IMG/VR virus record: IMGVR_UViG_3300025655_000088
Coordinates: 1-41,235 of that record
Source of the DNA: a virus
Strand: one strand, 5' to 3'
DNA length: 41,235 nt
The notes below the pieces were generated by a model. It was not told the origin of the DNA. It did not search any database and worked only from the letters and a program-made list of their open reading frames with translations. The position numbers and the translations under genes are program-made. This document shows, piece by piece, positions 2,643 through 18,548 of the stretch. Position 1 is the stretch's first letter, and every line of letters starts with the position of its first letter.

Positions 2643-3484
2643 TTGAAGAAGAAGAACGGTTTGACATGGCTATCATTGATGCAGATAGTATTCTGTACCA
2701 GATAGCCCATACAACCACCTCAGAAGCCCTATGTAAGAAGTATACTGATAGGAAGATCGAAGAGATCATGGAAGCTACATCAGCTAAAGCAGGAGTTGTA
2801 CTGGTTAAAGGTCAGAACAACTTTAGGTTCGCAGCTGACTTGGAATACAAAGGTAATCGTAAAGATACCATTGATCCTGATGTACGAGAACGTATCAACA
2901 TGCTATATGAGCATGTAGAAGATATCGCTATGCAAGGAGACAACGGTGAAGCGGATGACTATTGCGCTATCATAGCACAAACATGCCGTGATAACAATCA
3001 GACATATATCATTTGCCACATCGATAAAGACTTGAATTGTATTCCTAGCTACCATTACAATTTCAAGACAGGAACCACAGGTCTGTGGACTCCAGAAGAA
3101 TCCTATCGATTCATGTTCAAACAATTCCTGACAGGGGATGCCGCTGATAACATCAAAGGTATCAAAGGTCTTGGGCCAGTAACAGCAAATAAAATAGTAG
3201 ATAACGCTCAGGTAGACAGGCTTTGGGATACAGTTGTGTCCACATGGCAGGAAAAACAAGGCGCTATCTGGAAAGATAACTTTGTAAAGTGCGTAAACTG
3301 TATCTACATTAGACAATACGAAGCAGACCTACGTGTACTAACATTTGAAGAACTAAAGGAAAAACTAGCATGGAAGACTATGGCCACTGGATTGCTCTCA
3401 CTGAGCGACCGTCCGGAGCTTTCGGATTCATCTACGCAGTCTTCGGGCCAACCGGAAGACAGTACATCGGAAGAAAGCAACTAA
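2627..3484 (+). CDS. T7 gp6-like 5'-3' exonuclease / flap endonuclease (285 aa)
   Basis: PIN/FEN-fold nuclease that removes primers and degrades host DNA in T7-type replication. Visible signatures are the N-terminal acidic motif MAIIDADS, the YKGNRK arch region (74-79), GEADD (E108, D110, D111), HIDKD (D133, D135), GDAADN (D171, D174) and the helix-hairpin-helix-like IKGIKGLGPVTA that follows. Start is uncertain: ATG 2627 lacks a clear ribosome site, while ATG 2639 sits in an ATGA overlap with the preceding mini-ORF and has GGAATGGG about 7 nt upstream. The last 38 residues are a Ser/Glu-rich tail encoded entirely inside the out-of-frame start of the next gene, so the conserved domain really ends near residue 248. 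Confidence 0.9.
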   Translation: MGIQMIEEEERFDMAIIDADSILYQIAHTTTSEALCKKYTDRKIEEIMEATSAKAGVVLVKGQNNFRFAADLEYKGNRKDTIDPDVRERINMLYEHVEDIAMQGDNGEADDYCAIIAQTCRDNNQTYIICHIDKDLNCIPSYHYNFKTGTTGLWTPEESYRFMFKQFLTGDAADNIKGIKGLGPVTANKIVDNAQVDRLWDTVVSTWQEKQGAIWKDNFVKCVNCIYIRQYEADLRVLTFEELKEKLAWKTMATGLLSLSDRPELSDSSTQSSGQPEDSTSEESN

Positions 3485-3783
3485 CAAGTGTCACAACAAA
3501 ACTACCAGCAGGTAAAACCAGACGAGTTAAGTCATACAAGGAATCAGACTGGAGAGGATATACCACCTCATGTTCTGAATTACTGGCTGACATTAGCAGC
3601 TATGGAAAAGATGCCTTCACCTTCGTTATATACGATTGGTGTATGGGAAAGGGCATACTTACTTACCGAGAGTGTCAAGAGCAGTGGGGAAACGAAGTCC
3701 TCTCGCGAGTCGAGACACCTGATGGAGAGCGTTTGTGGTATAATGGGAACATCGGAGCAGTAAAATTTCTTAAACCAAAATGA
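3370..3783 (+). CDS. GIY-YIG-type endonuclease (137 aa), overlapping the exonuclease gene
   Basis: The N-terminus has the two paired strands of the GIY-YIG fold: G19-F-I-Y22 and Y32-I-G34 followed by R-K. Downstream, SDWRGYTTSCSELLADI and DAFTFVIYDW with R100-E101-C-Q-E104 match the arginine/glutamate region of phage GIY-YIG (SegE-like) nucleases. An AAAGGA ribosome site 9 nt before the ATG at 3370 supports this start even though it lies 115 nt inside the exonuclease gene in another frame. Possible roles are a free-standing homing nuclease that invaded downstream of the exonuclease, or a host-DNA or recombination nuclease of the replication module. Only the core domain is present, with no DNA-binding extension. 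Confidence 0.75.
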   Translation: MEDYGHWIALTERPSGAFGFIYAVFGPTGRQYIGRKQLTSVTTKLPAGKTRRVKSYKESDWRGYTTSCSELLADISSYGKDAFTFVIYDWCMGKGILTYRECQEQWGNEVLSRVETPDGERLWYNGNIGAVKFLKPK

Positions 3784-3941
3784 AGCAATACAAAGAACAA
3801 CCTCAACAAGAAACCCCTGAGTTCGATGAACAAAAGGGAGACAACCGAAACAAGTTTAATGAGAAACAATATGTGAATGAACGAAAGAAATCCCGTCGAG
3901 AACAACTCGAAGACCTTATCGATGACCGTTACTGGAGTTAA
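3780..3941 (+). CDS. Small charged protein of unknown function (53 aa)
   Basis: ATG at 3780 overlaps the stop of the nuclease gene (ATGA), and the TAA at 3939-3941 lies 2 nt before the primase-helicase ATG. The product starts MKQYKEQPQQETPEFDEQKG and is very rich in Lys, Arg, Glu and Gln, ending in an acidic-aromatic segment (DLIDDRYWS). It looks like a soluble, partly disordered helix former. The perfect packing between two well-supported genes makes it likely to be translated; no family recognised. Confidence 0.55.
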   Translation: MKQYKEQPQQETPEFDEQKGDNRNKFNEKQYVNERKKSRREQLEDLIDDRYWS

Positions 3942-5730: not shown

Positions 5731-7947
5731 ATGAATCCAGCACAATATCTAACAGAACGCGTAGCTAAAGTAATAGTAGACTCTGATAAGATATTCAATG
5801 AGGGTGCGAGATTACTTGCTCACTACCCTACATGGGAATATGAGATTGATAACATCGTCAATGAGTCATGGGATACTTTACTTAGGTACTGCATCCGAAA
5901 TAAAAGCACTACATACAGTGCATCAGTTAAACTTACTTTCGCGAGTAACCTAATTGGTGCTCGTATTGCACGCTCCATTGGTATCGATGATACGAATATC
6001 AAATCAACACTTAGCCTAGGTGATCTCCTAATGGAATCATTCTTGCAGGATGGTCTGATTGAGATTTTTCGAGAGTACAATGGACACAAGGCACCCTACA
6101 TGGTGAAGATGAAGGGTGATGTTGACAGTGTTAAGCCTACCTTAATTGGTACAGTGTTTGAACCACCAGAGCCTATCATTGGTTTAATCTCACCTATTAC
6201 CAAGGAACCATTCATCAAAGGATGGACTAACAAGAAACTATTTCATCAATACTTAGATGCTAGGTTCATCAAGTCACTGGAGACTCTACGTCAACAGCCC
6301 TGGGAGATAAATCTACCTGTACTAGAAGCTATGAAAGCTAATCCACCAACAACTAAACTTGAGTTAGTAACTGTTGATGGTGAGATCATCCAGCTAGATG
6401 TGACTGCACAGCATAGCATTAAGGACTTACCTAAAGGAGTTCTGAACATTGATCGTACAGTGTTCCTAGGTAAGGCAGACCCTAAACTACAGAAGCTACT
6501 GTCTAAGTACTATGAGTATCATCAGATCATTCGTAAGGCAGATGCAGTACTAGAGCATGGTCAACCATTCTATCAGGAAGTCTCATGTGACTACCGTGGA
6601 CGAGTGTACTACGCAGAATCATTCCTTGAGTTCCAAGGCAGTGACAATGCACGTAGTCTATTCTTGTTTCACAATAAGAAAGAGATGACTGAGGTAGGCT
6701 ATCGTTGGTTGTGTATCCATACTGCTTCTTGTTACAACGAGTCATATACCCTTGATGAACTCAAAGATATGAAATGGTTGAAGACAGACTACGTTGAGTA
6801 CCTGAAAGAAGAAGGTCTAGATAGTATCTCTCTTGATAAGATGACTCTAGATGACCGTGCTGAATGGGTCGAACAGAATCTGAGCAATATTTGGTTTGTT
6901 GCTGAAGCTAATCAGCCGGATCCTAAAGCTGAGAAGGTATCTTCGTTTCTAGCTTGCTGTATTGAGATCATGGAATACCAGAAGCACCTACTACAAGGTA
7001 CACCTTGTATGAGTGGCTTTCCAATCCCTATCGATGGCAGTAACAATGGCTGGCAACACCTAGCAGCTATCAGTAAAGACAAACAAGCGGGTGGTCTGGT
7101 ATCACTTACACCATCAACCATCCAGAAAGACTTCTATGTAGCGGTAGCTAAAGAGTTAATCACAATCATGCCTGACTGGTTTGCAGAACGAAATATCCCC
7201 ATGAAGCATATCCGAAAGGGTATCGCTAAACGGGGATCAATGACGCGAGCATACTCAGCTGGCAAACAACGTATCGCTAAGAACATGTATGATGACTGTC
7301 ACATGGAAGGCTTCACAAGTAAATATAGTATAGATGAGGCACAATGTGATGTGCTTGCAGGAAATCTAATCAAGGCTATCAATACTGTTTGTGCTGGCCC
7401 CTTAAAGACAACAAAATACTTACAGAAGATTGCTGAACACGAACTCAATAGTGGTAGGCTCAATCTAGAATGGCATACACCAAGCGGTTTTCCAGTAATA
7501 TACAAGGCTTATCTACAACATGAACGTAAACAAAGAGGTACCATCAAAGGTATCGAAGGTAACAAAGATGGGAGGGTTACTCACGTCGTTAAGGTGGACT
7601 TCGTTAACAAAGAGGGTGATAAAGTACCTTGTAGACGGTCGTTCGCCTCTGGCATCAGTCCCAATGTTGTTCATAGCTATGATGCTGCTCACATGGCAAA
7701 CACTATTGTATCTTTCAATGGCTCTTTTGCTGCAGTTCATGACAGCTTTAGTTGCCATGCTGATGATGTTACGTTCTTACAAGAAGTAACTAAGATGACC
7801 TTCATCGCACAATACGATGTACCCAACTCATTCGAGTTAATCGAAGAAGCTTTAATGCTAAACAAAGATTCATTTCAGATGGATCAACCACAACTCGGGG
7901 ATCTCGATGTCAATGACGTCAAGGACTCTGAATATTTCTTTTGCTAA
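5731..7947 (+). CDS. T7-like single-subunit RNA polymerase (738 aa)
   Basis: DNA-directed RNA polymerase of the T7 / mitochondrial type, expected to transcribe phage genes from its own promoters. Catalytic landmarks keep T7 spacing: the SCDYRGRVYY element (about 285-294), motif A PIDGSNNGWQH (D435 = T7 D537), motif B K500-R-G-S-M-T-R-A-Y508 (T7 K631 and Y639), and motif C VHDSF (H670-D671 = T7 H811-D812). It is about 145 residues shorter than T7 RNA polymerase (883), mostly before motif A, so the N-terminal promoter-melting domain is reduced. It lies in the middle of the replication operon rather than at its start, so something else must transcribe it first. I could not identify a repeated promoter sequence for it in this window. 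Confidence 0.95.
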   Translation: MNPAQYLTERVAKVIVDSDKIFNEGARLLAHYPTWEYEIDNIVNESWDTLLRYCIRNKSTTYSASVKLTFASNLIGARIARSIGIDDTNIKSTLSLGDLLMESFLQDGLIEIFREYNGHKAPYMVKMKGDVDSVKPTLIGTVFEPPEPIIGLISPITKEPFIKGWTNKKLFHQYLDARFIKSLETLRQQPWEINLPVLEAMKANPPTTKLELVTVDGEIIQLDVTAQHSIKDLPKGVLNIDRTVFLGKADPKLQKLLSKYYEYHQIIRKADAVLEHGQPFYQEVSCDYRGRVYYAESFLEFQGSDNARSLFLFHNKKEMTEVGYRWLCIHTASCYNESYTLDELKDMKWLKTDYVEYLKEEGLDSISLDKMTLDDRAEWVEQNLSNIWFVAEANQPDPKAEKVSSFLACCIEIMEYQKHLLQGTPCMSGFPIPIDGSNNGWQHLAAISKDKQAGGLVSLTPSTIQKDFYVAVAKELITIMPDWFAERNIPMKHIRKGIAKRGSMTRAYSAGKQRIAKNMYDDCHMEGFTSKYSIDEAQCDVLAGNLIKAINTVCAGPLKTTKYLQKIAEHELNSGRLNLEWHTPSGFPVIYKAYLQHERKQRGTIKGIEGNKDGRVTHVVKVDFVNKEGDKVPCRRSFASGISPNVVHSYDAAHMANTIVSFNGSFAAVHDSFSCHADDVTFLQEVTKMTFIAQYDVPNSFELIEEALMLNKDSFQMDQPQLGDLDVNDVKDSEYFFC

Positions 7948-10000: not shown

Positions 10001-10075
10001 ATGTAGATAGCTTAGTGATAGAGCAGAGTCCCTTATAAGGCTTTGACCTAGGTTTGATTCCTAGTCTACATACCA
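10001..10075 (+). tRNA. tRNA with encoded CCA; anticodon probably UAU (Ile)
   Basis: The acceptor stem is a perfect 7-bp pair (ATGTAGA 10001-10007 with TCTACAT 10065-10071), followed by A and an encoded CCA at 10073-10075. The T arm is a perfect 5-bp stem (CTAGG/CCTAG) around TTTGATT. The D arm is GCTT/GAGC with loop AGTGATA. The anticodon arm is imperfect: the loop CTTATAA closed by CC/GG gives anticodon TAT, reading AUA, but leaves one U-C mismatch in the stem and a short variable loop. A register with a complete stem has an 8-nt loop, so the anticodon call is tentative. A phage tRNA for the rare AUA codon would fit an AT-leaning genome. Confidence 0.82.
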
Positions 10076-10411: not shown

Positions 10412-10864
10412 ATGAGTGATACACTAGTACAACCATTAATGCAACTATTCGCAGATAACTTTGTTGTCTACTATAAATCGCATGGGTTCCACTTCAATGT
10501 AGAAGGCCCAACATTTAGCCAAGATCATGGGTTACTAAATGAAATCTATGATTTCCTTTGGGCATCCCACGATGATCTTGGAGAACAAATTCGTCAATTA
10601 GATAAACCAGCACCTAGGAGCCTCAAAGAGATTTTAGATCTCAGTGATATCAAAGAGTCAGTTAAGGCTCGACTAGACAATAAAGATATGCTGGTTGCCT
10701 TATCTGCTGACTTCGATGACCTACGTGAAGATGCTCAGTTGCTATACGATGCGGCTGGCTCTTGTGGATGCGGCGGTTTAGAAACACTAGTAGGAGACTA
10801 CCTTAAAGCATTATCCAAGCTACATTGGAAAGTAAAAGCAACAATAGGAAAGAGTTTTAAATGA
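10412..10864 (+). CDS. Dps / ferritin-like protein (150 aa)
   Basis: Four-helix ferritin-like protein of the Dps branch, which as a dodecamer oxidises and stores iron and protects DNA from oxidative damage. The intersubunit ferroxidase ligands keep Dps spacing: H27 (in HFNVEGPTF), H39, D54 and E58 match Listeria H31, H43, D58 and E62; the fifth position (D47) is N43 here. The length is typical. There is no Lys-rich DNA-binding N-tail, but the C-terminus is basic (KVKATIGKSFK). A Cys-rich loop (GSCGCGG, about 127-133) is unusual for Dps. It sits at the end of the + strand operon with the reductase, suggesting protection of DNA or metal centres. The last 4 nt overlap the next start. Confidence 0.88.
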   Translation: MSDTLVQPLMQLFADNFVVYYKSHGFHFNVEGPTFSQDHGLLNEIYDFLWASHDDLGEQIRQLDKPAPRSLKEILDLSDIKESVKARLDNKDMLVALSADFDDLREDAQLLYDAAGSCGCGGLETLVGDYLKALSKLHWKVKATIGKSFK

Positions 10865-11148: not shown

Positions 11149-11159
11149 ACAAATTAAAA

Positions 11160-11191
11160 CCCCCATAGGAGTAATCCTATAGGGGTTTTTT
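11160..11191. terminator. Bidirectional intrinsic terminator between convergent operons
   Basis: Inverted repeat CCCC-C-ATAGGA / TCCTAT-A-GGGG (one C-A mismatch) around a GTAA loop. It is followed by nine T on the + strand and preceded by AAAA, which gives a U run on the - strand too. It lies exactly where the + strand operon and the - strand late operon meet, so it can stop transcription from both sides. Confidence 0.9.
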
Positions 11192-11192
11192 T

Positions 11193-14100
11193 TTAGAACA
11201 TGAAGTAAATTCCACCGTTCTTAGCTTTAGCTGCAATAGCGCTTTCTTGTTTTTGTTTATTTAATTTACCCTGCACAGCCCAGGTAGTTGGGAGGAATGT
11301 ACCTCCTGCTTTACCCTTACCATACAAAGTAACATTCATAAATGCTTTCACTAATGAGACAACTTTAGCTGAAGGTAACGCTTGGTTATCACTACGACCC
11401 TCTTTGTTAATAATAAACCCTGAAGCATCTGACTCGATATACTTAATAAACTCTTGTTGTTCAGGACTCAAGCTCCATCCCTTGCTTTGGTTCTCTTTTA
11501 AGTAACCGTACTGACGATCAATAGCAACAGTCACACCGTAGTATGGGCCATTCTTACCGATAACAACTTCAGATTGCTTATTCAGGTCATCACGACCCTC
11601 CTGCATCTTAATGTTAAAGTCCTTAATGAGGTTACTACGAACATCCCATGCCATAATTTTAGGTAAGGCAATGTTGTTAGCTGCATACATAGTCTGCAAT
11701 AGACTATCGGAAGCCACAACAAAGTTATCAAATACGGGTTGCTGGAATAACATCTCACTAGGTTTCTTACCACCATTAACAATCTTCATTGTCTCTGCAA
11801 CAAGGACTGACTCACGGTACTGACCCAATACAGGGCCAACTTGGTTCATAGCAGCAGAACCGGGGCCGGGAACTAGTAGCTTATGCTCTCCAGTTTCCTC
11901 ATCCATAACAGTCTTAGGCCGTGCTGGTGCCATAGGGTCTAGAGTACGTTTAGTACCTGGAACACTACGGGTATCACCGGAAGCACTACGCAATGTGGTA
12001 TAAGTACCATCTTCTTTAGGCATATAGCTTCCGATACTCATAGGCTCATGCCAATAACCTTCGGGTGATGGTACCTTATTAAGCATACCAAGAGTAGCAA
12101 CAATATCTTTGGGTAATTGCTGTTGCCACGAATCCATAGTATCAGATAGTGATGCACCGTAGATAGCATTAAGATCATTAATCATACCTTTAGAATCATT
12201 ACTATCATAGTAAGGGGCAAGCGCATCCCGGAATTGTGGGTTCTTGGCTAAGAACTTACGAGCAGTATCATGGTGGAAAGACTTAGGCTTACCGTAGTCA
12301 GTCTGTAGTAGAACACCTTTACCAAACTCATCTGCAAACTTAGTACTCTTATTAGCTTCCAGTAGTCCTGCCCAAGCCTCACGAACAGCGAACCGATCAG
12401 TACTGATAGCCTTCTGAACACCTTGCTTGTAAGCTACTTCTAAGAAGAACTGACGAGGGTTTCCTGAAGGAATTGTGTTAGCTAAACCACCAACCAACGT
12501 TGGGTTGTAAAGAATACCAACACGCTTAAGCACTTCAACATCACCATCATCATTAGCAAGGAAGGTACGACCAGCTGAACTCATATCAATCTCAGTAGTA
12601 ACCCGTGGAGTAAATGCCAAACCATTCTTCTTAGCATTCAAATAGTTATTAGCATCCATATAAGCCTGCAAGCGATATCCCCAATCCTTTTTACCAGAAG
12701 ACGCGATGAAGTTATTCAACACACCCAACTGTTGTGGGGTTAGGTTAAGTTTTAACTTAGTCATGTCAAGGTTAATAGCTGCAACAGCGGATGTACTCTG
12801 TGGTACAATGCTTGAAAGCACTTGTCCAATGATAGCTGCTTGAGAAAGGAACTCAGGGGTGACTAGTGAGGCTAAACCGGGAGCAGTCAATGTGTGAGTC
12901 TCAACACCAACTGTTTTACCTACATCAAGTACGTGTCCCATAGTAACATACCAAGCAAACTCACGTTGTGTCGGTGTTAAACTCATATCACCATTGCGAA
13001 CCTTAGAACCAATAGAATCAAAATGATTTTGAGCTACTGATAAGGGCAATCCGGTTAGGTGGTAATTAGTACCACCGAAATTTACAGGTGAGCTAATGCT
13101 ATTAATAACAGCACGAGTCATCAGATCCCGTTGTGCATTAATATCTTCTGAGTCGTTATACATACGGTGAACAGCGTAATCTTCCCAATACTTTGAGTAA
13201 CGGGGTACTGATTCAGAAACGTTCTGACCATAGTAGTTATTTAACTTGATAAGGCCATTAGCTTTAGTCTTAGTAGAGTTCTCATCATCAGCAGCAGTGA
13301 AACCAAGTAACGCCTTAGTACTGGATAACCCTTGAATCGGTTCTCCTGCGCGAGCACGAGGATGGTTTGGATTAACCTTTTGAGGTGGTTGGCCGGGAAT
13401 TGGTGCTGGTGCAGGATAAATTTCATTGATAGCTTGACTAGAGAATAGAGCAGCAAAGAATGATTTGATAGGGCTAGTTAAAACACCTACGCTGCCAGCA
13501 ATACGCTTGGCTTCTTTCATTGTTGCGACACGAGTGTAACCTGTCTTTTCTTTATCTCCTGTACGAGTAGTACGACTAGCACCAACGTATTCACCAGTAT
13601 CTGTAACCGGAACTGATTGACTACGTCCACGAGTTAAGTCACCTACTTCACGGGACATGTTCCGAGCAGCCATGTAGAACTTCATACCCATCTCGGGGCT
13701 AAGTCTAAACACTTCATTACCAGACGTCTTGTCAGAAACCAAATAGCCCTTATCAACTAATGCTTGTGTGACGCTAGCTCCAAGAGTACGCGCACTGATA
13801 TTAGTTTGTTTAGGTTGTAATGGATTACCTTGTTGGTCTACGTTACCCATCTGATGGAGTTTCATAGCGGAATTACCTAGAAGACCATACATAGTCTCCG
13901 CTGGTAGACCGCCATTCTCTGCCTTCAAAGCAACAGACTGAACTTCAACACCTTGAATATCATTACCCCAAGCATGGAGTTCTTGGGTATCCTGATCGTT
14001 GATCTCTCCCGCAACTGTTTCAGAAGCACCAGCTAGCACCGGGGCGATCATAGCAAATGATGTAGCACTCAAGCTACCTGCCTTGACAGCACTAATACCA

Positions 14101-14744
14101 AGACCTTGCTTGATATTCTGCATAGCAGACATCTTATGTGGTGCTAAAGAGTTCTCAGAAGTAGCGCCAATTTCGGTATTGATATTAGCAAGACCATCAC
14201 TGATAGCTCGTGCTGCAGTGTTAACTGTTCCACGTTGTGTCGGATGAATTGACTTAGGATATGCAGCTTCGAGAGAAGCCTCATCGTTCCAGTCAACATT
14301 AAGACCATTAGCTTTACGGGATTGCTCAAGCTTATTACGCTCAGTCAACCCGCGTACTTGCTCTTCGTTCATAGGCATACCACGCTGATTAAGCATAGCC
14401 ATCTGAGGGCTGCCTTGATTAGTCATCTGTGGTTGCTGAGACTGATCTTGCCAGCTACTTTCATCGGACATCATCGGCTCCTGACCCATACCAGCACTCT
14501 GTTGTGCTTGAGTATTCTCAGGGATATCTGCCATAGCATTTGAACGAGCGTAATCAATAGCCTCTTGAGGCCGCTGATACTGTTCTGGCTCTGCTAGCTC
14601 TGATGGTGGAACTGATTGCTCAAGAGCAGAGGGTGGAACCTCCAACCCTTGCTTTCTAAGCTCCTCACCCATGTTAACACCGGACGCTGGAATCTCCGGT
14701 ACTGTGTATTGGCCTGAACGACCGACACCTGAATATTTTCCCAT
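11193..14744 (-). CDS. Giant virion protein with divergent single-subunit RNA polymerase-like motifs (1183 aa)
   Basis: Last gene of the late operon, start 14744 with AGGAG in the end of the preceding gene. The first ~200 residues are Gln/Pro/Met-rich and probably disordered. In the C-terminal half I see a pattern like the palm of T7/N4-type RNA polymerases: motif A TTEIDMSSAG (D720), motif B K809-x7-Y817-G818 (GKGVLLQTDYGK) and motif C PVFDNF (D1006). Spacings (A to B 97, K to Y 8, B to C 189) are close to T7 (102, 8, 173). T7 R627 is Asp here and the motif C His is Phe, so it may be divergent or inactive. The position among ejection proteins recalls the injected N4 vRNAP. Alternative: a structural ejection protein with chance motifs. 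Confidence 0.55.
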   Translation of the reverse strand: MGKYSGVGRSGQYTVPEIPASGVNMGEELRKQGLEVPPSALEQSVPPSELAEPEQYQRPQEAIDYARSNAMADIPENTQAQQSAGMGQEPMMSDESSWQDQSQQPQMTNQGSPQMAMLNQRGMPMNEEQVRGLTERNKLEQSRKANGLNVDWNDEASLEAAYPKSIHPTQRGTVNTAARAISDGLANINTEIGATSENSLAPHKMSAMQNIKQGLGISAVKAGSLSATSFAMIAPVLAGASETVAGEINDQDTQELHAWGNDIQGVEVQSVALKAENGGLPAETMYGLLGNSAMKLHQMGNVDQQGNPLQPKQTNISARTLGASVTQALVDKGYLVSDKTSGNEVFRLSPEMGMKFYMAARNMSREVGDLTRGRSQSVPVTDTGEYVGASRTTRTGDKEKTGYTRVATMKEAKRIAGSVGVLTSPIKSFFAALFSSQAINEIYPAPAPIPGQPPQKVNPNHPRARAGEPIQGLSSTKALLGFTAADDENSTKTKANGLIKLNNYYGQNVSESVPRYSKYWEDYAVHRMYNDSEDINAQRDLMTRAVINSISSPVNFGGTNYHLTGLPLSVAQNHFDSIGSKVRNGDMSLTPTQREFAWYVTMGHVLDVGKTVGVETHTLTAPGLASLVTPEFLSQAAIIGQVLSSIVPQSTSAVAAINLDMTKLKLNLTPQQLGVLNNFIASSGKKDWGYRLQAYMDANNYLNAKKNGLAFTPRVTTEIDMSSAGRTFLANDDGDVEVLKRVGILYNPTLVGGLANTIPSGNPRQFFLEVAYKQGVQKAISTDRFAVREAWAGLLEANKSTKFADEFGKGVLLQTDYGKPKSFHHDTARKFLAKNPQFRDALAPYYDSNDSKGMINDLNAIYGASLSDTMDSWQQQLPKDIVATLGMLNKVPSPEGYWHEPMSIGSYMPKEDGTYTTLRSASGDTRSVPGTKRTLDPMAPARPKTVMDEETGEHKLLVPGPGSAAMNQVGPVLGQYRESVLVAETMKIVNGGKKPSEMLFQQPVFDNFVVASDSLLQTMYAANNIALPKIMAWDVRSNLIKDFNIKMQEGRDDLNKQSEVVIGKNGPYYGVTVAIDRQYGYLKENQSKGWSLSPEQQEFIKYIESDASGFIINKEGRSDNQALPSAKVVSLVKAFMNVTLYGKGKAGGTFLPTTWAVQGKLNKQKQESAIAAKAKNGGIYFMF

Positions 14745-17700
14745 TTAATAATCTCCTAGTTCTTGCTGGACATATTTAGCAAAAGCAGGACTAGTACCAA
14801 ACACTGGTATAGTTCTTACTGCCGCTTTCGTTTTACTTCCAGGCTGGGCTGATAACGCATCATTAATTTTGTTAATGTACGCTAGGGCTGGTGCCTGATC
14901 TGATACTTGTGAGTATGCTTTCTGCAGCACACTCTGATTTTGTTTACTTGGAGGTAGTACTGATGATACAGTATCCCAGATACGTTGGCCTGAGCCTAGT
15001 ATTCCAGTTTGACCAATGAAACGCTGAAACCTTTTCTCTTCTTTTAACCACTCAGGGGGTGTCTGACCATACTTAATCATATCCTTGCAAGCAAGAGCAA
15101 AATAAGTTAGAGCCATACCCATAGCTATAGTAGCTGCTGCATTGACCTGATCTTGTGATCCGTTCTTTTGAATATCCTTTATCAACCGTGGTAACACATT
15201 AGCAGTAAATGCTGAAGTATATCCTTGGAACTGAGTAAACAGTTGTAGATATGGATCACTATAAAACTTAGGACGGTTCATCTTTGACGGTTGAATAACA
15301 GCTTCAATAACGAAATTGTGAGTACCCTGTTGAATCTCATGCATGACACGAGCTTCATGAGCTTCTGATTGCATATCTACACTGAGTAAGTATTCAATAT
15401 TAACACCAACACGAACCAAATGCTCTCGGGCATCCTTAGCTGCTTGAGAAGGATTCTGAGGGTCATCCTGCTGAACTGTCTTAACCCAATTAGTAATAGC
15501 ATCTGCACCGATAGACATCTTAGCAAACCGAGTAATATTAGTTATACTAGTTAAGCCTGTTAGTTTAAAGAATCCTTCAGTCCACTTTGAAAAGTAACCA
15601 GTGACGATATCATTTCGTCGACCAATATCACCTTTACCTTGGAAACCACCAGCAAACAGAGCCTCATGATAATCCTGATTAACTTTAGTTTCCTTACCAC
15701 CAAGAGCAGTAAACACACCAGCAGCTTCAGCAACAAAGCCTTTGAGTAATGCTTGAGTAGCTTTAATTGACTGAGGTAAGTTAAGGTTACGGTATATCTG
15801 AGCGAACTCTACAGTAGAACTAATAGCGGCTAATGGTAGTGAGCTAACTGTTGAAAGAAAGTTAATACAACTGAGAGCACCTTTAGCATAAACATTAGTT
15901 ATCTCATGGTAAGTGCCTCTCCGCATAGCAACCCAATCCTTCAGCTCATGAGCTACGAATGATGCACGTTCAGAAGATAACTCTCCATTGCTAACTGCAG
16001 CCTGAATCAGAGTAGCTAACTTACTACCGTCATTACCAATCAAATGCTTGTTAACGTACTTAGCAGCACCTTGAGCAGCTAGGCTATAAGCGTTCTCTAG
16101 CACATCTTGGTTAAGAAACTTACCAAATACACCCGCATGTTTCGGATCATTAAGGATAGCCTCAATATTATCTTTCACAATAGCTGAATTAGGTCGAGTA
16201 GCTGCATCAAACAAATCATCAAACGGGTCTGTCAAGTAGTTTACGCTTGTATCATTTATTAACCTAGCAACTGTTTCTTGTGCTTCCGCTTGGGTAATAC
16301 CTAAATGCTTAACAAGTAACGAAGCAAACTCCGAAGGGTTACGATCTATCGCTGACTTATTCACAGGTTTCATCTCAAGGAATTGCTCAGGAGTAAGCTT
16401 GCTTCCTGTTCTACTGTTGTAGGCATTGATTAATGAATCAATCTTATCAGCGTATTTAGTAATAGCCTCCTTATGTTCGGCATGTTTACCAAGCAGGGTA
16501 TCTAAGCCGCTACCATGAGATAACACAGCTGAGTCCACAGTTGCAGCATTCTCTGCGTGTTTAGCTCCCAATAAGCTTAGTAATGCTTGTTTAACTTCAG
16601 AGCTAGAGAGGATAGAAGAAATATTACTAATAGGTAATCCCTTAAACGCCCTCTTAACCTCATCTACAGAGCCAAAAGTGTTCTGTAATTCCTGCGCAAT
16701 ATGTGATTGTTGCTCTTCAATTGAGCCACCGTTGAATGCCCGGTTAGCACCGAGTAACGTCCATAGAGCAGCAGAATAGCCACCAGCATGGGAATCAGAA
16801 CCTGCAAGGTTACTAGACCATTTACCAAACAAACCACCAAGACCCTTGTCTTTAAAAAATGAAGAAATCTTCCCGATAGCGCCCGAAGCTTGTCTCTTAA
16901 AGCCTTCAGCCCTAGATAACTCCTCTAACGTAGGTTCTCCACCCGGCGTCTGGTCAGACTCAGCATCTTCAATCATGCCACGAGCGGTTTCAACCTTGCC
17001 AAATGTATTCATCATATTCTGACGAAATTCTGTATCGCTGGATTGTGGGGTTGCATTAGGGTTAGCCGTGACAGCATTACGCATTACCCTACCTGCTCCA
17101 CCAAAGGTTCCACCAAGAACTGCACCACCAACACCTGCGTTGATAATACGGTTCTTAAGTTTAATCATCTCATATGGATCATCAGGAAGTGCTATGCCTT
17201 TTTTCTCACCAAAGTATTGGGTAGCTTCCTGAATCATTTCTTCAGGAGCTTCATTAACAACACCTGAAACTACCGCCTTACCTACTTTGCGAGCAGATAA
17301 TTGACTAGCTAGAGCAGAAGCTTCAGCAACATCTTTGAGTCCTTCTTGAATCTTATTAACAATGGTTCTCTCAGCAGCTTCTTGTGTGTAGCCCTTCTTA
17401 ACCATCTGCTCGATTACTTCTTTTTGAGTAGCCTTAGATAGGATACTACCAGTTACTTTACTGATACCAATTGCTTCAACTAGTGACTGTAGGATACCAG
17501 ATCCAACAGCCCAAGATACATCCTTCTTTTCTCCTTGGCCTTCCCATGTTTGACCTGCATAAATAATAGCTGGAATGGCGAGTGAAGTACCCATAGTCAT
17601 GGGTGCAGCTAAGGTAGCCGCTACTGATAGCATCATTTGTGGTGCAGAGGAAGCAGCAGTACCTAGCATGTAGTCAGCTACTTCACTTAAGGAATTTAGA

Positions 17701-18548
17701 TTCCAACTACCATCAGGAGATATAGCTTCACCACTACGTAATGAAGGTAGGTTAGCTAAGTTACTCTTGTAAGTATCTGACTTAGACTTCCCTGCATTTT
17801 GTAGGTATTCGGAGCCTGTAGCTGTTCCAAGGATGTCAAGAGCATTCCATGCACCTTGAACCATACCCTGATAACCGGATGACAATCCCGTTTTAAAGTT
17901 GCTACGAGCCTCACCTTTGTAAGTCTCGTCAGGGGAGATATATGCAGCACCAGCGTACCTGTCACTATCACCACGAGCATCAAGAGAAGCGCCATACTGT
18001 GCTGCAGTATTTGCATATGGCTTTGCTTCCATAGGTACGCGATTACGATCGTAATTTAATGCGTCACGCATCGCAGTCGCAATATTTGTTGGAGCGTGAT
18101 TTGAAATATCACGATCACGATATAAGTCAGCTACAGCTATTCCAGTCTGTTGCTGTTGTGTCGGCATGAGGCTATCAGCTAAACGATTCTGTAATAGGTA
18201 GTCACTTAATGACTCACCCTTCTCGTTCACCAGATCACCAAGCTCCCGTTGGTACTTGTCCTTCTCTCCCGAGAATTTAGGAATAGTAAACCCGTTATCT
18301 TGGATAGCCCTACGGACTATTTGCTGTTGTGTATCAGCACCGTACTCTGCAGGACGGAAAGACTCGACAGTGTTCCCTGCCTTTTGAGTCTCATATGTGT
18401 TTACGCCTTTTAAACGTAAAGTCCTACCATCAGAAAGCCCAAAGGTATCTCCGTCCTTAGAGTAGATGCCTCCGGGTAGTAAGAAACCAGAGGTATCTGC
18501 AGGATCAAAACCTTCAGCGGTCAATGTTTGATCAAAAATATTATCCAT
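14745..18548 (-). CDS. Large internal virion / ejection protein with N-terminal SNase-like nuclease domain (1267 aa)
   Basis: Residues about 28-115 match the staphylococcal nuclease (TNase) fold: DGDT (D34 = D21), L-R45-L-K-G-V-N-T-Y-E53 (R45 = R35, T51 = T41, E53 = E43; N50 replaces D40) and DKYQR101 (R101 = R87). The three main catalytic residues are kept. The remaining ~1100 residues resemble T7 gp15/gp16-type channel proteins: a long hydrophobic Ala-rich segment (about 291-332), helical stretches, NRPKFYSDPYLQLFTQFQGY near the C-terminus and another hydrophobic stretch (about 1137-1155). It is expected to be ejected with the genome and to line a channel across the envelope. The gene abuts the next one (stop next to start). 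The ejection role is inferred from size and context. Confidence 0.75.
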   Translation of the reverse strand: MDNIFDQTLTAEGFDPADTSGFLLPGGIYSKDGDTFGLSDGRTLRLKGVNTYETQKAGNTVESFRPAEYGADTQQQIVRRAIQDNGFTIPKFSGEKDKYQRELGDLVNEKGESLSDYLLQNRLADSLMPTQQQQTGIAVADLYRDRDISNHAPTNIATAMRDALNYDRNRVPMEAKPYANTAAQYGASLDARGDSDRYAGAAYISPDETYKGEARSNFKTGLSSGYQGMVQGAWNALDILGTATGSEYLQNAGKSKSDTYKSNLANLPSLRSGEAISPDGSWNLNSLSEVADYMLGTAASSAPQMMLSVAATLAAPMTMGTSLAIPAIIYAGQTWEGQGEKKDVSWAVGSGILQSLVEAIGISKVTGSILSKATQKEVIEQMVKKGYTQEAAERTIVNKIQEGLKDVAEASALASQLSARKVGKAVVSGVVNEAPEEMIQEATQYFGEKKGIALPDDPYEMIKLKNRIINAGVGGAVLGGTFGGAGRVMRNAVTANPNATPQSSDTEFRQNMMNTFGKVETARGMIEDAESDQTPGGEPTLEELSRAEGFKRQASGAIGKISSFFKDKGLGGLFGKWSSNLAGSDSHAGGYSAALWTLLGANRAFNGGSIEEQQSHIAQELQNTFGSVDEVKRAFKGLPISNISSILSSSEVKQALLSLLGAKHAENAATVDSAVLSHGSGLDTLLGKHAEHKEAITKYADKIDSLINAYNSRTGSKLTPEQFLEMKPVNKSAIDRNPSEFASLLVKHLGITQAEAQETVARLINDTSVNYLTDPFDDLFDAATRPNSAIVKDNIEAILNDPKHAGVFGKFLNQDVLENAYSLAAQGAAKYVNKHLIGNDGSKLATLIQAAVSNGELSSERASFVAHELKDWVAMRRGTYHEITNVYAKGALSCINFLSTVSSLPLAAISSTVEFAQIYRNLNLPQSIKATQALLKGFVAEAAGVFTALGGKETKVNQDYHEALFAGGFQGKGDIGRRNDIVTGYFSKWTEGFFKLTGLTSITNITRFAKMSIGADAITNWVKTVQQDDPQNPSQAAKDAREHLVRVGVNIEYLLSVDMQSEAHEARVMHEIQQGTHNFVIEAVIQPSKMNRPKFYSDPYLQLFTQFQGYTSAFTANVLPRLIKDIQKNGSQDQVNAAATIAMGMALTYFALACKDMIKYGQTPPEWLKEEKRFQRFIGQTGILGSGQRIWDTVSSVLPPSKQNQSVLQKAYSQVSDQAPALAYINKINDALSAQPGSKTKAAVRTIPVFGTSPAFAKYVQQELGDY

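Follow-up and report, generated by a model that had tools for sequence, protein, structure and literature searches.

A compact virion-type single-subunit RNA polymerase candidate at the end of the late operon of an uncultured podovirus

Single-subunit virion RNA polymerases (vRNAPs) have so far been regarded as a hallmark of the N4-like family; the locus described here raises the question of whether such an enzyme is also encoded by podoviruses outside it. The window, i.e., the whole stretch of 41,235 nucleotides analyzed (IMG/VR record IMGVR_UViG_3300025655_000088), had been given a first-pass annotation that placed a 1183-residue product with polymerase-like motifs at the end of the late operon, in addition to a normal T7-like RNA polymerase (RNAP). 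Both genes are real. The open reading frame list and translation of the window give P0002 as 1183 codons running from 14744 to 11193 on the minus strand, with stops throughout the plus-strand reading of the same interval, and P0001 is a complete T7-like RNAP (Table 1). P0002 is the final gene of a long minus-strand late (particle-building) operon, which begins in the capsid region on the far right of the record, and lies at the convergent junction with the plus-strand early operon, which encodes a DNA polymerase, an exonuclease-like protein, a primase-helicase, the T7-like RNAP, a class II ribonucleotide reductase, a tRNA and a ferritin-like protein. The annotation had also spoken of a compact podovirus, which holds for the polymerase but not for the phage: the 41-kb record is a fragment, because portal and terminase genes are missing at its end and CRP-7 and near-complete relatives measure 58-62 kb.

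Table 1. Positions of P0002, its sequence elements and other features of the window
Feature	Position	Strand	Basis or remark
SegE-like GIY-YIG endonuclease	3370-3783	+	PF19835 E = 1e-27; overlaps the end of the exonuclease-like gene
P0001, 738 aa, complete single-chain T7-like RNAP	5731-7947	+	PF00940 E = 1.4e-53; phrog_414 E = 4e-94
tRNA-Ile, anticodon TAT	10001-10075	+	Early operon, close to the convergent junction
Ferritin-like (Dps-type) gene	10412-10864	+	PF00210 E = 1.1e-8; in a phage early operon
Terminator-like hairpin at the convergent early/late operon junction	11156-11189		15 pairs, T-rich tail
P0002, probable compact virion-type single-subunit RNAP, 1183 aa, last gene of the late operon	11193-14744	-	Sequence, profiles, fold, tree
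P0002 motif C, residues 1003-1007 (PVFDN; predicted catalytic D1006)	11724-11738	-	Alignments; D1006 in beta-hairpin turn of model
P0002 residues 975-978 (QYRE), counterpart of the T7-like HSxD element preceding motif C	11811-11822	-	Alignments
P0002 residues 906-936, long beta hairpin between motifs B and C	11937-12029	-	Secondary structure of model
P0002 motif B / O helix, residues 805-819 (D805, K809, Y817, G818)	12288-12332	-	Alignments; model helix 801-816
P0002 motif A, residues 716-726 (TTEIDMSSAGR; predicted catalytic D720, E718 = N4 E557)	12567-12599	-	Alignments, N4 sequence
P0002 residues 520-544, counterpart of T7 DxxGR / N4 TxxGR (R527) and N4 NPQSxKxxR (R544)	13113-13187	-	Near-invariant columns, N4 sequence, combined alignment
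P0002 residues 1-118, predicted disordered low-complexity N-terminal extension	14391-14744	-	AlphaFold2 pLDDT <50 for 1-29 and 32-118
P0003, probable ejection protein (1267 aa); relative of a Bruynoghevirus virion structural protein	14745-18548	-	Sequence matches
P0004, probable ejection protein (903 aa) that lacks cysteine; contains a transglycosylase-like segment	18567-21278	-	Sequence matches

A family of late genes beside a T7-like RNA polymerase

In single-sequence searches, P0002 hit nothing meaningful in PHROGs, Pfam, the PDB sequences or a set of 50,697 named phages, its counterpart gp33 of Roseobacter phage CRP-7 gave nothing useful in PHROGs, PDB or the named phages, and representatives of three other sub-clades matched no named phage; a scan of genome contigs likewise found no relative. 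Across the whole family alignment, no stretch shows enough conservation to be used for such a scan. CRP-7 is the nearest named phage, its RNAP being the best match to P0001 and its gene order the same. We collected relatives with the RNAP as bait, which yielded 80 contigs. About 60 of these carry, behind the RNAP, a minus-strand gene of the P0002 family, in each case the last late gene beside the T7-like RNAP, and CRP-7 gp33 is a more distant member. Each of the 15 whole records checked gave a match; in 14 the E value was 4e-48 or lower, and the fifteenth, a short contig, matched only via its RNAP. Complete homologues are about 1160-1370 residues long. Since iterated profile searches absorb T7-like RNAPs from the second or third round on, the alignments used as evidence were restricted to late genes. 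Identity inside the window's clade is 33-36%, and the P0002 gene is under purifying selection there, with dN/dS values of 0.06-0.16 for non-identical pairs of members.

Relationship to RNA polymerases and state of the active site

In profile-profile comparisons, the family matched ten vRNAP domains of Schitoviridae (E = 2.1e-16, 727 columns, N-terminal regions included) and 22 co-resident T7-like RNAPs (E = 6.4e-14, 577 columns), while the mutual E value of these two reference sets was just 0.0084. The window clade alone reached E = 1.3e-5, and the negative control, consisting of the neighbour P0003 and its CRP-7 counterpart, gave E = 0.63. Individually, nine of 45 members matched phrog_414 ('RNA polymerase', best 4.7e-8) and five matched phrog_2206 ('virion RNA polymerase', best 3.9e-11). 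Against PDB sequences the family profile produced chance coiled-coil matches only; sequence profiles alone therefore miss the solved RNAPs, which profile-profile and fold comparison reach.

An AlphaFold2 model of P0002, built from a 45-sequence alignment, had a pLDDT of 77 and a pTM of 0.81, with nearly all of residues 1-118 at low confidence. The predicted fold is the cupped right hand of RNAPs: the best 50 PDB fold matches are all single-subunit RNAPs (T7, mitochondrial and N4 enzymes, including mini-vRNAP) with E values from 6e-12 to 6e-9, at modest whole-chain TM-scores of 0.35-0.42 and high rmsd, and phage RNAPs and vRNAPs make up most of the best viral fold matches. Strand 716-721 of the model carries motif A, helix 801-816 carries motif B, and D1006 sits in a beta-hairpin turn, the arrangement that a palm calls for. 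The hairpin of residues 906-936 is, judged by its position, a candidate specificity loop.

We then placed the family in a FastTree phylogeny of 70 sequences comprising the late family, the Schitoviridae vRNAPs and T7-like RNAPs. The late family is monophyletic (0.987) and adjoins the Schitoviridae vRNAPs (1.0), apart from the T7-like RNAPs, so that tree and profile comparison both put it nearer to N4 vRNAP than to the T7-like enzymes. A sister relation to Schitoviridae vRNAP is probable rather than certain, because branches are long, identity between the P0002 family and N4 vRNAP is about 10%, and the tree is limited to these three sets of single-subunit RNAPs. The overall resemblance is more than chance, because some 60 homologues at the equivalent genomic place keep the motifs, two known RNAP sets align with the family and the control fails; P0002 is almost certainly homologous to RNA polymerases.

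The motif residues are those claimed in the first-pass annotation, namely E718-I-D720-M-S-S-A-G725, D805, K809, Y817-G818 and V1004-F1005-D1006-N1007, and its spacings of 97 (A to B) and 189 (B to C) hold when motif B is counted from the Tyr (D720-Y817 and Y817-D1006). It had proposed conservation in homologues and structure prediction as checks; the residues are conserved and the predicted fold is that of an RNAP. The order of motif-A Asp, K-x7-Y and motif-C Asp is conserved: R527, D720, position 813, Y817, G818, D1006 and N1023 show little or no variation in the family, position 813 being Met in the family and Leu in P0002, and K809 is Lys or Arg. The near-invariant R527 is the Arg of the DxxGR/TxxGR element, its preceding Gly being His in the window's clade, and R544 corresponds to N4 R440. 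The N4 mini-vRNAP motifs read EADGVTNG, RGIAKNPLTITIYG and KIFDG.

P0002 might nevertheless descend from a virion RNAP but have become catalytically inactive, its remaining role being purely that of a structural or ejection protein. The ten N4-type enzymes compared all have Arg at R666 and Lys at K437, where P0002 has Asp805 and Leu541, and throughout the window clade the motif-A Asp is followed by Met instead of Gly, the N4-type ExDGxxxG reading EIDMSSAG in P0002. However, both catalytic Asp residues, K809, Y817-G818, R527 and R544 are kept at the low identity within the clade, the dN/dS values argue against decay, and sister sub-clades retain near-canonical motifs, several of them with ExDGxxxG itself (e.g., AEMDGKTHG in L021). 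Two residues had been put forward in the annotation as possible signs of an inactive relic. The Asp at the site of T7 R627 (N4 R666) is indeed present, but within the window clade four members have Asp and six have Lys at this site, and further conserved sub-clades have Ala or Asn. The Phe that precedes the motif-C Asp (His or Tyr in other sub-clades) is N4-like and not a sign of decay, because the mini-vRNAP of N4, an active enzyme, has it too. The variable R627 site, the shared Phe and purifying selection weaken the relic reading. Given the conserved motifs and this selection, a dead relic is unlikely, and P0002 is predicted to be catalytically active.

Proposed packaging, early transcription and gene exchange

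In N4, gp50 lies at the convergent end of the late operon after the virion proteins gp51 and gp52, the three being ejected together (PMC12633501), and P0002 is likewise the last late gene behind probable ejection proteins. P0002 and P0004 are free of cysteine and P0003 contains two, whereas the residue makes up 1.1% of the other proteins of the window that were examined; at this rate, the chance of zero cysteines in 1183 residues is about 2e-6, and some other late proteins of the window are also cysteine-poor. Of the 45 family members in the alignment, 43 lack cysteine, as do the three CRP-7 counterparts. By analogy with N4, gene position and cysteine content suggest that P0002 is packaged in the virion and ejected. 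Residues 43-128 of P0003 resemble a staphylococcal nuclease (SNase-like N-terminal domain, PF00565 E = 2.1e-5), which is unusual in an internal virion protein.

In the reading that we consider likely, P0002 is an active, packaged, early-transcribing vRNAP of N4 type; support for a second single-subunit RNAP of virion type comes from profile comparison, the predicted fold, the conserved catalytic motifs, the gene's position and the tree. As a DNA-dependent RNA polymerase of the T7 superfamily, from a lineage that is probably sister to N4-like gp50, it would be made late, packaged with the two adjoining large ejection proteins, and enter the cell through the tail along with the first DNA. Inside the cell it would transcribe the early genes, the resident T7-like RNAP gene among them, and the T7-like RNAP would then take over transcription. 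A search for hairpin promoters in early regions found no excess over shuffles in four of six relatives and a slight excess in CRP-7 and G017, with no shared motif; the window is without the left early end. One hairpin conserved in G017 (7948) and G018 (10659) was dropped as a promoter candidate, as it lies within a larger terminator-like palindrome.

An active RNAP could also be expressed late and remain unpackaged, serving late or very late transcription. The case for packaging is one of gene position and cysteine content, and without this enzyme a single RNAP would have to cover all of the phage's transcription. Yet the gene stands directly behind two probable ejection proteins and appears to be replaced together with one of them (L011 versus the window, below), the N4 homologue at the equivalent place is packaged (PMC12633501, PMC4496689), and the cysteine depletion is like that of the adjoining ejection proteins, which makes an unpackaged enzyme quite unlikely. 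The probability that P0002 is an ordinary internal virion protein with a chance likeness to polymerase motifs, as its lack of any single-sequence database match might suggest, is negligible in view of independent profile, fold, motif and tree evidence and a clean negative control (E = 2.1e-16 for the vRNAP profile match versus 0.63).

Relatives with a similar RNAP differ strongly in this part of the genome. L120 has 70% identity to the window in the RNAP, 33% in the vRNAP-like protein and 40% in the P0003 counterpart, whereas in L011 the RNAP is 72% identical, the vRNAP-like protein is barely detectable and the P0003 counterpart is about 25% identical in pieces. L011 and L014 together have RNAPs 60-72% identical to that of the window, a barely detectable vRNAP-like gene and an ejection gene that is also far more divergent. 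This pattern suggests that the vRNAP and the adjoining ejection gene were replaced as one cassette, very fast divergence being the alternative. In a further relative, the T7-like RNAP gene (L116:5113-8045, minus strand) is split between residues 440 and 441 (P0001 numbering), inside motif A (between DGSNNG and WQH), and the insertion is a group I intron (Rfam RF00028, E = 8.6e-18) with an ORF resembling a GIY-YIG homing endonuclease.

The family as a whole suggests that a widespread, little-studied group of phages delivers a transcription enzyme of its own to the host. If so, vRNAPs of about 1.2 kaa occur in podoviruses outside the Schitoviridae, with one culturable member (CRP-7), and host-independent early transcription extends to a widespread phage group. 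Such an enzyme would be a natural minimal vRNAP, with which the role of the N4 extensions, packaging and ejection become testable. As a tentative extension, this mostly uncultured aquatic podovirus group may start infection with a compact vRNAP that moves, as one cassette together with the ejection protein that is its partner, between phages about 70% identical in their other RNAP, which would reset early-promoter specificity, and the giant N4 enzyme might be a later, enlarged form.

Comparison with known systems

The P0002 family can be aligned with N4 gp50 over most of the mini-vRNAP domain (residues 998-2103). P0002 and N4 vRNAP have in common the motif-A Glu at -2 and the Phe in motif C, NPQSxKxxR is also found in several sub-clades of the P0002 family, and the family has no or almost no cysteine, as in N4 vRNAP (PMC10747016). 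In contrast, the family measures about 1200 residues against 2842-3820 for Schitoviridae vRNAPs (PMC10654107), and P0002 is without the long N- and C-terminal extensions of N4 vRNAP, which are thought to serve packaging; their lack counts against the proposed reading. The window's phage group has a complete single-chain second RNAP where N4 has the heterodimeric RNAPII, and the major capsid protein (phrog_1328 in the window group, 1357 in N4) and large terminase (phrog_2 in CRP-7, 38 in N4) belong to different families. Of the N4-type capsid, terminase and portal proteins, only the portal is matched, in CRP-7 (L004:37612-39846, minus strand); it shares phrog_1216 with N4, and portal and vRNAP may have travelled together. 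We do not file P0002 under the Schitoviridae gp50 family, because it lacks the giant size and ExDGxxxG and because the capsid and terminase families differ.

Within the same genomes, the co-resident T7-like RNAP (P0001; CRP-7 gp30) has the same fold and motif order as P0002, but it is the product of an early gene, has 700-820 residues, 13-14 cysteines and an HDS motif C, and occupies a separate branch of the tree. CRP-7 gp33, recorded as a hypothetical protein of 1235 residues and not as an RNAP, belongs to the P0002 family with the same gene order; its motifs are ADxRQSN, R-x7-YGK and IHDA, and it differs from P0002 in its sub-clade and in having Arg for Lys in motif B. In the available text of the CRP-7 genome paper, ORF30 alone is described as an RNAP (PMC6918029). 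A published IMG/VR survey for N4 vRNAPs dropped candidates of <2500 residues, regarding them as T7-like (PMC10654107), and the StenR_269 paper suggests a compact vRNAP outside the Schitoviridae, arguing solely from protein size, helix content and the absence of cysteine (PMC10747016). Our literature search found no report of a compact single-subunit vRNAP outside the Schitoviridae with motif or fold evidence, a novelty that is provisional because most subscription journals lie outside its coverage.

The crAss-like phages also carry an RNAP in the particle for the start of early transcription, and theirs is a relative of the multisubunit-type enzymes of cells. Thermus phage P23-45 (PMC10770324) and phiKZ (PMC10612078) have a particle-carried RNAP that starts early transcription, as proposed here for P0002; the virion RNAPs of P23-45 and phiKZ-like phages are related to the cellular multisubunit type, whereas P0002 has the predicted single-subunit fold of the T7 and N4 enzymes.
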